The notes under the pieces were generated by a model that saw only the letters and a program-made list of their open reading frames with translations, was not told the origin of the DNA and did not search any database. Shown piece after piece: positions 23,431 through 42,620 of a DNA stretch of 64,000 bases. Source of the DNA: Streptomyces hundungensis. Lineage in GTDB: Bacteria > Actinomycetota > Actinomycetes > Streptomycetales > Streptomycetaceae. The stretch spans positions 6,262,001 through 6,326,000 of the forward strand of contig NZ_CP032698.1 in NCBI RefSeq assembly GCF_003627815.1, given 5' to 3'. The translations under genes and the position numbers were made by a program. How positions within the stretch are numbered: position 1 is the stretch's first letter; each line of letters begins with the position of its first letter.

Positions 23431-24276
23431 ATGGGCTGGACGGTCCTCTACATCGCGTTCGGAGTCGTCGCACTGTGGCTGCTCGGCGAAGTGCTGTTGC
23501 AGTACAAGGCGCGACTGCGCTGGAGGCTGCTGGCCTTCACCGGATTCCTCGGTGTGGTCCTCGGCGTCCTCATCCCGTCCGTCCTCGTGATCATCGTGGG
23601 TGCGATCGCCTTCGCGGTCGGCCAGGTGTATGTCACCCTCTCCTTCCGGCGCGGCTTCTCCACCGGCTGGGCGCTGGGCGGCAGGCCCGGCGCGAGCCGC
23701 CGCCGCAAGGCGGGCCGCAGGGGCGCCGCCGCGCCGGAGCCGGTCCTGGAAGTCTCCGACCTCCAGTACGGGGAGCCCGCCGAGGCCGACCCCTTCGACC
23801 CCAACGGGTCCGCGGCACCGGCCGATTCGGTCTACGAGCCGCTGCCGATGCCCGACGAGACCGGCCAGTACGGCATCTACCGCCCCGCCCAGCAGAGCGA
23901 GGGCGAGGGCCCCGCCCAGTACGGCGCGTACGACCCGCACCAGCCCTACGCCGACCCCTACGCCCCGCCGTACGACGAGACGGGCACGGGACAGCAGCAG
24001 TACGCCGCCTACTCGGATCCGTACATCGGCAACGGGGGCCAGGCGTACGGCACCTACAGCGCCTACGACAGCTTCGGCGGCCAGCACTCCTATCCCGATC
24101 CGCTCGCCGCGCAGTACGGCACGGACACCCCGCCCGGAGGTGTCTGGGTGCCCCAGCAGCGCGACGGTGAGTACGCCCCTTATGAGCAGCAGCAGGCCCA
24201 GCCGCCCTACGACCCGAACCACCCGAACCACACAGACCTGCCGCACCACCCCGAGCAGCAGCCCTACCGCTACTGA
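23431..24276 (+). CDS. Membrane protein with a long Tyr/Gln/Pro-rich tail
   Basis: A 281-residue protein I cannot assign to a named family. Two hydrophobic stretches at about residues 3-20 and 32-64 form a small N-terminal membrane domain. An Arg/Lys-rich segment (RRRKAGRRG) follows near residue 92. The last 170 residues are low-complexity and acidic, with many Tyr in contexts such as QYGAYDPH, YADPYAPPYDE and QQQYAAYSDPY. The tail is probably disordered and cytoplasmic and offers many possible phosphorylation sites. A ribosome site AGGAGAATGAGGGG precedes the ATG. It lies after metF and converges on the CrtI-like gene. Confidence 0.8.
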   Translation: MGWTVLYIAFGVVALWLLGEVLLQYKARLRWRLLAFTGFLGVVLGVLIPSVLVIIVGAIAFAVGQVYVTLSFRRGFSTGWALGGRPGASRRRKAGRRGAAAPEPVLEVSDLQYGEPAEADPFDPNGSAAPADSVYEPLPMPDETGQYGIYRPAQQSEGEGPAQYGAYDPHQPYADPYAPPYDETGTGQQQYAAYSDPYIGNGGQAYGTYSAYDSFGGQHSYPDPLAAQYGTDTPPGGVWVPQQRDGEYAPYEQQQAQPPYDPNHPNHTDLPHHPEQQPYRY

Positions 24277-39237: not shown

Positions 39238-40188
39238 TTGAGCCAGCGACACGTCCCGGTGATGCTCCAGCGATGCTTGGACATGTTGGCCCCGGCCCTG
39301 ACCGAGCCGGGTGCGGTCGTCGTCGACTGCACCCTCGGCCTCGGCGGCCACAGCGAAGCCCTGCTCACCCGGTTCCCCGAGGCGCGCCTGATCGCCCTCG
39401 ACCGCGACAAGGAAGCACTGCGCCTGTCCGCTGAGCGCCTGGCCCCCTTCGGGGAGCGCGCCACCTTGGTGCACGCCGTCTACGACGAGCTCCCCGACGT
39501 GCTGGAACGTCTCGGCACGCCCCGCGTCCAGGGCGTCCTGTTCGACCTCGGCGTCTCCTCGATGCAGCTCGACGAGGCCGACCGAGGGTTCGCCTACGCC
39601 CAGGACGCGCCCCTGGACATGCGTATGGACCAGTCGACGGGCATGAGCGCCGCCGAGGTGCTCAACACCTACCCGCCCGGTGAACTCGTGCGGATCCTGC
39701 GGGCGTACGGCGAGGAGAAGCAGGCCAAGCGGATCGTCTCGGCGATCGTGCGCGAGCGCGAGAAGGAGCCGTTCAGCAACAGTGCCCGGCTCGTGGAGCT
39801 GATCCGCGACGCGCTGCCGCAGGCCGCCAAGCGCACCGGAGGCAACCCCTCCAAGCGCACCTTCCAGGCGCTGCGCATCGAGGTCAACGGCGAACTCGCC
39901 AGCGTGGAGCGGGCGATCCCCGCCGCGGTCGACGCCATCGCGCTCGGCGGCCGGGTCGCGGTGCTCTCCTACCAGTCCCTCGAAGACCGCATCGTCAAGC
40001 AGGTGTTCGCGGCCGGCGCCGCCAACACCGCGCCGCCCGGGCTCCCGGTGGTGCCCGAGCGCTACCAGCCGCGGCTCAAGCTCCTCACCCGCGGCGCCGA
40101 ACTCCCCACGGAGGAGGAGGTCGCCGAGAACCGCCGCGCGGCCCCGGCCCGGCTCCGCGGGGTCCAGCGGATCAGGGAGGACGTGTGA
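39238..40188 (+). CDS. rsmH: 16S rRNA (cytosine(1402)-N(4))-methyltransferase
   Basis: Methylates C1402 in the ribosomal decoding centre; the gene heads division clusters in most bacteria. The protein has 316 residues from the TTG at 39238. [14 protein letters not shown], the SAM motif [46 protein letters not shown] and the final RPLxP-like [22 protein letters not shown] are family-typical. The TTG has GAGAGGG six bases upstream. An ATG at 39202 would add 12 residues. Its stop codon overlaps the ftsL GTG. Confidence 0.93.
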
Positions 40189-40704
40189 GCAAACCGGCCA
40201 TGCAGTTGCGCGGCACCGCCGCGCGGCTCGGCAGGCTGATGCCGTCGCAGGGGGCCAACAGCGCCGCCCGCACCCCCTTCGTGCTCCTCGTCGTCGCCCT
40301 GCTCGGCGGCGGGCTCATCACGCTCCTGGTCCTGAACTCGGCACTCAACGAGGGCTCGTTCAAGCTCAGCGAGTACCGCAGGCAGACCACCGAACTCACC
40401 GACGAACAGCAGGCCCTCCAGCGCGACGTGGACGACCTGTCCGCCCCCGACGCACTCTCCCGCCGGGCCGGTGACCTCGGCATGGTCCCCGGCGGCAACC
40501 CCGTCTTCCTCGGCCCCGACGGCACCGTCAAGGGCGTCCCCGGCACCGCGGGCGACCCTTCGCCCGCCGAGGCCGCCGAGCCCGCGCCGCTGCCCGGGGC
40601 GCCGAGCCAGGCCCCCGCACCGCGCCCCAAGCAGCGCCACACCCCGGCCCCCAGCCCGGCCGGCCGGCGAAGACCTCCCCGACCCCCGGCAGGTGACGCA
40701 GTGA
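40185..40704 (+). CDS. ftsL: FtsL-like septum formation protein, reading frame disturbed at its 3' end
   Basis: A bitopic division protein: a short cytoplasmic part, one membrane helix (about residues 31-52) and a leucine-zipper-like coil ([24 protein letters not shown]). It is followed by [19 protein letters not shown] and a Pro-rich tail. The GTG at 40185 overlaps the rsmH stop. The frame then continues without a stop into ftsI. CCGG is repeated three times at 40656-40667. With only two copies the protein would end ...[15 protein letters not shown] at the TGA at 40702-40704, which overlaps the ftsI GTG in the normal way. So this copy is either fused to ftsI or carries a four-base insertion or sequencing error. 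Confidence 0.8.
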
Positions 40705-42620
40705 GCCCCAAGGAACCCCCGCGCCGCCGGGTGCCCCCGCCCGCGCGCTCCCGCCCGCCGGCCCGCCGCCCCCCGGCCGCCAAGAAGCTCAAGCTCGGCA
40801 GCCACCGGCCCCGCCTGCGCCTGGTCAGCCTCGGGCTCACCCTGGTCATGCTGGCCTTCGTGGTGCGGCTCCTCCAGGTGCAGGCCGTCGACGCCAGTGC
40901 GTACGCCGCCAAGGCCGACAAGAACCGGTACGCCAGCTACGCGCTGCCCGCCGAACGCGGCAGGATCACCGACCGGGCCGGCATCGCGCTCGCCACCAGC
41001 GTCGACGCGTACGACATCACCGCCGACCCCACCCTGTTCACCCCCGAGAGCGCCAAGATCCCGGACGCCGCGGAGCAGGCGGCCGCGCTGCTCGCGCCGT
41101 TGATCGGCAAGGGCCAGGCAGAGCTCGCCAAGAAGCTCAAGACGCCCAGGACCCGCTATGTGGTGCTCGCCCGCAGACAGACCCCGCAGGTCTGGAACCA
41201 GATCAAGGACCTCAAGAAGGTCCTCGGCGAGAAGGCGGCCGCCGACCGCGCCAAGGGCGGCCCCGGCGCCAATGTGCTGGCTGGCGTCCTGAACGAGTCC
41301 AGCACCAAGCGGGTGTACCCCAACGGCGATCTCGCCGCCGGGATACTGGGTTACGTCAACGCCGAGGGCAAGGGCGGCGGCGGCCTGGAGTCGTCCCTGA
41401 ACAAGGAGCTGGCCGGCACCGACGGCAAGATCTCCTACGCCCAGTCCGGCGGCCGGCGGGTGCCCACCGCCGGTACCCGCGAGACCCCGGCCGTGCCCGG
41501 CTCCGACGTCGAGCTGACCATCGACCGCGACATCCAGTGGATGGCGCAGAAGGCCATCGCCGACCAGGTCGCCGAGTCCCGCGCCGACCGTGGCTACGTC
41601 ATAGTGCAGCGGTCCGACACCGGCGAGGTGCTCGCGATGGCCAACGCGCCCGGCTTCGACCCGAACAACATCGCCCAGGCCAACGCCGCGGCGATGGGCA
41701 ACGCGGCGCTCCAGGACGCCTTCGAGCCCGGCTCCACCGCCAAGGTCATGTCCATGGCCGCGGTCCTGGAGGAGGGCGTCGCCACCCCCGACACCCATGT
41801 GGTGGTGCCCAACCGGCTCCAGCGCGGCGACCGGCTCTTCAAGGACGACGTCGATCACGCCACCTGGAACCTGACCCTCAACGGCGTGCTCGCCAAGTCC
41901 AGCAACATCGGCACCATCCTCGCCGTCGAGCAGCTGGGCAAGACCGACGCCCAGGCCGACGGCGTCCTGTACTCCTACCTGCGCAAGTTCGGCATCGGCT
42001 CGCCCAGCGGCCTCGGCTTCCCCGGCGAGACACCCGGCATCCTCGCCCCGGCGAACAAGTGGTCCACCTCGCAGCAGTACACGGTCCGCTTCGGCCAGGG
42101 CCTCTCGCTCAACGCCATGCAGGCCGCCTCCGTGTACTCGACCATCGCCAACGGCGGGGTCCGCATCGAACCGACCCTGGTGCGCGGCACCAAGGGGCCG
42201 GACGGGCGGTTCACCCCGGCGCCGCCGCCCCGGCAGACCCGGGTGGTCAGCGAGAAGACCGCCAAGACGCTGGCCCAGATGCTCGAATCGGTCGTCGGCG
42301 ACGCCGAGGGCACCGGCACCAAGGCGGCCATCCCCGGCTACCGGGTCGCGGGCAAGACCGGCACCGCCAACCGGGTCGACCCCAAGACCGGCACCTACAA
42401 GGGCTACACCGCCTCCTTCGCGGGCTTCGCGCCCGCCGACAACCCCAAGATCACCGTCTATTGCGCCATCCAGAACCCCACCAGGGGCAGCTACTTCGGC
42501 GGTCAGATCTGCGGACCCATCTACAAGCAGGTCATGGAGTTCGCCCTCAAGACCCTCCAGATCCCGCCCAGCGGAGCCCAGCCTCCCAACCTGCCCGTCA
42601 CCTTCGGCGGCAACGACTGA
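40701..42620 (+). CDS. ftsI: Division-specific penicillin-binding protein (transpeptidase)
   Basis: Cross-links septal peptidoglycan. 639 residues from the GTG at 40701, which has AGGTGA at 40691-40696. A basic Pro-rich cytoplasmic start, one membrane helix (about residues 41-62) and a dimerisation domain with RGRITDRAGIALATS come first. The transpeptidase domain has Ser345 in STAK, Ser400-Ser-Asn402 in SSN, and Lys552-Thr-Gly in KTG. Because of the CCGG triplication upstream, the frame is also open back to the ftsL start, giving a possible 811-residue FtsL-FtsI fusion. Confidence 0.93.
   Translation: MSPKEPPRRRVPPPARSRPPARRPPAAKKLKLGSHRPRLRLVSLGLTLVMLAFVVRLLQVQAVDASAYAAKADKNRYASYALPAERGRITDRAGIALATSVDAYDITADPTLFTPESAKIPDAAEQAAALLAPLIGKGQAELAKKLKTPRTRYVVLARRQTPQVWNQIKDLKKVLGEKAAADRAKGGPGANVLAGVLNESSTKRVYPNGDLAAGILGYVNAEGKGGGGLESSLNKELAGTDGKISYAQSGGRRVPTAGTRETPAVPGSDVELTIDRDIQWMAQKAIADQVAESRADRGYVIVQRSDTGEVLAMANAPGFDPNNIAQANAAAMGNAALQDAFEPGSTAKVMSMAAVLEEGVATPDTHVVVPNRLQRGDRLFKDDVDHATWNLTLNGVLAKSSNIGTILAVEQLGKTDAQADGVLYSYLRKFGIGSPSGLGFPGETPGILAPANKWSTSQQYTVRFGQGLSLNAMQAASVYSTIANGGVRIEPTLVRGTKGPDGRFTPAPPPRQTRVVSEKTAKTLAQMLESVVGDAEGTGTKAAIPGYRVAGKTGTANRVDPKTGTYKGYTASFAGFAPADNPKITVYCAIQNPTRGSYFGGQICGPIYKQVMEFALKTLQIPPSGAQPPNLPVTFGGND

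Follow-up and report, generated by a model that had tools for sequence, protein, structure and literature searches.

In the 64,000-nt stretch of Streptomyces hundungensis DNA analysed here (the window), which occupies positions 6262001-6326000 of a contig of 8,393,044 bases, the division genes ftsL and ftsI occupy a single open reading frame. This arrangement very probably results from the loss or miscounting of one C near the 3' end of ftsL, through either an assembly error or a very recent mutation, and is unlikely to represent a working tether between the two proteins. The fused frame is absent from the closest relatives, as judged from their aligned sequences.

The fused frame and the C run

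As the first-pass annotation had reported, the ORF list and the translation give an 811-residue frame without a stop on the + strand (40185..42620), running from a GTG at 40185 to the TGA at 42618-42620 and spanning both FtsL and FtsI. The ftsL reading frame (40185..40655, +, GTG start) encodes a membrane helix near residues 32-50, a conserved part and a variable Pro/Ala-rich tail, and has no stop of its own ahead of ftsI, continuing to 42620. Its ten best matches (P0122-P0131) share 84-90% identity with the 156-residue query, covering 88-100% of its length, and have PGR at the C-terminal end. PF04977 (DivIC/septum formation initiator) has no match in the 811-residue protein at E 0.001; precomputed matches to this family are absent from the ten best FtsL matches and present in more distant ones.

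The FtsI part of the fused frame is intact. The ftsI gene proper (40701..42620, +) starts with a GTG and encodes 639 residues, the length of the relatives' P0004 and P0005, including a membrane helix and the dimerisation and transpeptidase domains (PF03717 at 254-424, E 3.9e-15; PF00905 at 470-785, E 4.3e-74). These domains are shared with class B PBPs such as PbpB (6kgh) and FtsI (8bh1), and residues 254-801 of the window protein match 14-555 of the 562-residue PbpB chain; translated from 40185, the window protein would differ by 172 extra residues, made up of FtsL and its shifted tail. The ftsI GTG overlaps a TGA at 40702-40704 and is preceded by the Shine-Dalgarno-like AGGTGA (40691..40696, +), both of which had been correctly recognised.

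The cause of the fusion is best seen against the closest relative compared, Streptomyces sp. ASQP_92 (locus L012), which is 99% identical in FtsL and 98% in FtsI and has separate genes. A run of six Cs in ASQP_92 has only five in the window (40648..40652, +), and from the last C of this run onward the two sequences are identical over 97 nt (40652-40748), a triplicated CCGG included. The ftsL tail in the window is therefore one C shorter, which puts the FtsL stop out of frame. The comparison shows that the lost or miscounted C brings the last part of the FtsL tail into the frame of ftsI; as a result the normal FtsL stop is skipped and the frame continues through ftsI. In 78 of 113 sequences, window included, the frame of ftsI contains no stop as far upstream as beyond the conserved FtsL part, so that a shift of suitable sign within the variable tail fuses the genes without selection.

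The normal end of FtsL is well defined. When L009-L014, L017 and the window are aligned, the stop that follows ...PGR in FtsL is seen to be a TGA four bases ahead of the ftsI GTG; in the window this TGA (40694..40696, +) lies inside the ftsI AGGTGA and is out of frame. FtsL is 168-201 residues long in L009-L014 and L017, indicating a variable tail. A survey of 127 relative loci gave 116 with an FtsL match, of which 112 have an FtsL frame that ends before FtsI, two run off the contig and two are fused. The stop is the TGA of GG[C/A]AGGTGA in 104 of the 116 and lies elsewhere in eight. Most of the 112 frames that end do so with PGR (75), and others with SGR (22), TGR (4) or AGR (3). The proposal that FtsL normally ends at the TGA of 40702-40704 is not upheld, as QVTQ or a similar ending was found in none of the 112 ending frames. 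The position of the FtsL stop inside the ftsI binding site in those 104 loci suggests that translation of the two genes is coupled.

Relatives and other fused frames

The window and the separate ftsL-ftsI pair of other Streptomyces have the same neighbours in the same order and the same GGCAGGTGA overlap between FtsL stop and ftsI binding site, and the ftsI GTG start is that of L009, L010, L012 and L013. A scan of named genomes, from which the best 80 of 407 relatives were kept as loci, gave 69 with both genes (67 separate and two fused, L015 and L021); the 11 without an FtsL match were short loci in which the match starts near a contig end. A further 53 loci came from two sources: a sampling of the genus, which matched 120 of 121 genomes and gave 29 new loci apart from the window's own, and a search for relatives, which matched 38 of 41 and gave another 24. 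Among the resulting 134 sequences, window included, ftsL and ftsI could be placed as neighbours in 113 and not in 21; these counts include duplicates, with three locus pairs sharing identical ftsL matches. The genes are separate in 110 of the 113 and fused in three, namely the window, L015 and L021. The idea that a small indel has joined normally separate genes thus stands, although the indel is a single C and not a CCGG. In L018, L020, L044, L059, L067 and L079, between 114 and 702 nt separate the FtsL stop from the downstream FtsI match start, which may itself fall a few residues into FtsI; these gaps resemble a long extra N-terminal region of FtsI or an insert.

In the comparison of ftsL-ftsI junctions that had been suggested, the two genes are separate in all six of the top-ranked related loci (L009-L014), where FtsL terminates in PGR*, and conservation of the fusion within the lineage was accordingly not found (0/6 of these loci, 3/113 overall with the window); L015 and L021 are fused. 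In L015 (3001-5541, Streptomyces sp. RKAG290) the fused frame is free of gaps, but it too looks like the product of an indel, as a second frame of that locus terminates in SPGR* at the usual position. The fused frame of L021 (CoH27) is unreliable because there are Ns inside ftsL. Three fused proteins (P0002, P0003 and P0006) occur among the 120 listed of 985 matches. Frame changes break up P0006, and neither the junction nor the N-terminus of FtsI is present in P0002, so both may be errors; P0003 looks clean but comes from a 5.4-kb contig. In all five cases the FtsL frame enters FtsI as it does in the window, but the junctions differ. In P0024, FtsL is joined to an aldo/keto reductase family domain (PF00248); the joined proteins P0002, P0006 and P0024 look like assembly faults. 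A phrase search of the literature found no published natural FtsL-FtsI fusion, and among the matches listed by a looser search none contained the phrase 'natural fusion'.

L015, P0002, P0003 and P0006 nevertheless count against a purely private event, and with them comes the possibility that the strain truly makes an FtsL-FtsI fusion and that such fusions recur in Streptomyces (the window, L015, P0002, P0003), being tolerated or altering sporulation septation, given that division genes are dispensable for growth and that the FtsL tail is often free of stops in the ftsI frame. This is unlikely. According to PMC8748795, loss of ftsL and ftsI is tolerated for growth in Streptomyces, so that the two genes are not essential there, contrary to what had been assumed. 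Mutants in ftsL and divIC have sporulation-septation defects, as described in PMC4255298, which also cites Bennett et al. 2007, a paper whose title describes ftsL and divIC as dispensable for colony formation. If the mutation is real, the strain would be a natural experiment on the extent to which FtsL tolerates being joined to FtsI where growth needs no division.

Topology, the CCGG triplication and recoding

The first-pass annotation had further suggested that a real fusion would tether FtsL to its partner transpeptidase. The open frame in the window and the open fused frames in L015, P0002 and P0003 are in keeping with this, as is the interaction of E. coli FtsL with FtsWI noted in PMC7733951. 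However, a genuine, functional and lineage-fixed fusion of this kind is very unlikely. Hydropathy places helices near residues 32-50 and 213-231 of the fused frame, and residues 157-210, ahead of the second helix, contain 17 K/R and two D/E, as expected of a cytoplasmic segment. By hydropathy and charge, FtsI thus has a single N-terminal helix (about 213-231) after a basic cytoplasmic segment, and the fused protein would have two like-oriented helices in series, judging by charge and hydropathy only. For bacteria other than Streptomyces, PMC8998562 describes FtsL and FtsI as bitopic, and PMC7733951 describes FtsQLB as having a short part in the cytoplasm and a larger one in the periplasm. The tether is unlikely because two single-helix proteins joined head to tail would not be expected both to keep a large part outside; on this topology the 811-residue product would be an off-design membrane protein.

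The genomic comparison is also unfavourable to a tether, as the genes are separate in nearly all of the sequences compared, ftsI retains its start and its binding site unimpaired, and the identity to ASQP_92 from the C run onward gives no sign of an old event. Neither the comparison of 113 two-gene sequences nor the hydropathy and charge profiles provided evidence for a functional tether. If the mutation is real, free FtsI would probably still be translated from the GTG at 40701 with its binding site, though perhaps in smaller amounts, as ribosomes would no longer stop at the coupled TGA.

The fusion had been attributed to a four-base slippage from two to three copies of CCGG, which could be reversible. 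Three tandem copies are indeed present at 40656..40667 (+), the single such site in the window, and the triplication is uncommon: 0.17 sites are expected in the window, at least one occurs in 17 of 100 shuffles, and, of the 116 relatives in which FtsL was matched, ASQP_92 alone carries it within 900 nt counted from the start of that match. However, the triplication is not the cause, because ASQP_92 shares it and yet keeps its genes separate (provided that its assembly is correct at the C run). Removal of one CCGG would moreover put FtsL into the frame of the ending that none of the 112 relatives uses. CCGG slippage was therefore rejected, and as an explanation it is extremely unlikely, although slippage and assembly error were rightly offered as the alternatives. 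Programmed recoding, in which ribosomal frameshifting would make normal FtsL, is barely credible: the C run sits exactly at the frame change, but five Cs are short for recoding, and relatives need none because their zero frame already ends normally, mostly at the shared motif.

Assembly error or recent mutation

The fused frame is probably due to a slip in sequencing or a very recent mutation rather than being a purpose-built fusion protein. Its main importance lies in annotation, where ftsL and ftsI should be given as separate genes and ftsL marked as possibly carrying a one-base indel. As to how the single C came to be missing, assembly error and very recent mutation would seem to have about even odds, leaning slightly towards error. 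The evidence comes from a comparison of 464 kb of the window's genome with the matching stretch of ASQP_92, in which counterparts were found for 301 of 337 ORFs of the relative and 304 of 329 of the window's genome, covering about 354 kb each way. Frames split between the two genomes gave 20 rows in both directions; 17 were inspected, and the other three coincide in position with one of these, at about 458-461 kb of the joined stretch. Shifts close to the ends of genes are poorly detected by this method, which missed ftsL itself in the relative-to-own direction.

Among the 17 inspected breaks, only ftsL-ftsI has a coding signature on both sides, its pieces having third-position GC of 0.95 and 0.96 and substitutions against ASQP_92 of 3/3/10 and 7/6/43 by codon position. 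In the other 16, the minor piece has a third-position GC of 0.53-0.80 and is an upstream or antisense extension. A generally error-ridden assembly was considered and is unsupported, as no second two-sided coding break appeared among those inspected, with about 300 orthologous ORFs compared. The assembly is good overall in the compared stretch, and a single isolated error would fit, as would a single recent mutation.

Of the homopolymer runs that differ, 16 are shorter and 12 longer in the window's genome than in ASQP_92, with no strong overall bias towards shortening. Among 45 runs of six inside ORFs, three are shorter, one of them in ftsL and the other two in ORF start regions, and none is longer. 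This 3-to-0 shortening points towards error, while the lack of another two-sided break and of strong homopolymer shortening points against it. A literature search on indel errors in Streptomyces assemblies found no papers.

Fourteen homopolymer differences inside chosen ORFs were checked, that in ftsL among them. One at 325938 alters about the last 18 residues of one ORF, those at 153727 and 182545 split matches and both fall within the 17 inspected rows, and the remainder either fall close to the start of an ORF or have a single frame running across them. Between the window and ASQP_92 there are 11 indels not divisible by three inside or beside ORF matches, including that in ftsL; the others are at gene edges, upstream of starts or mutually compensating. 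At 23908-23916, neighbouring insertions of four and two bases relative to ASQP_92 lie inside an ORF and are jointly in frame.
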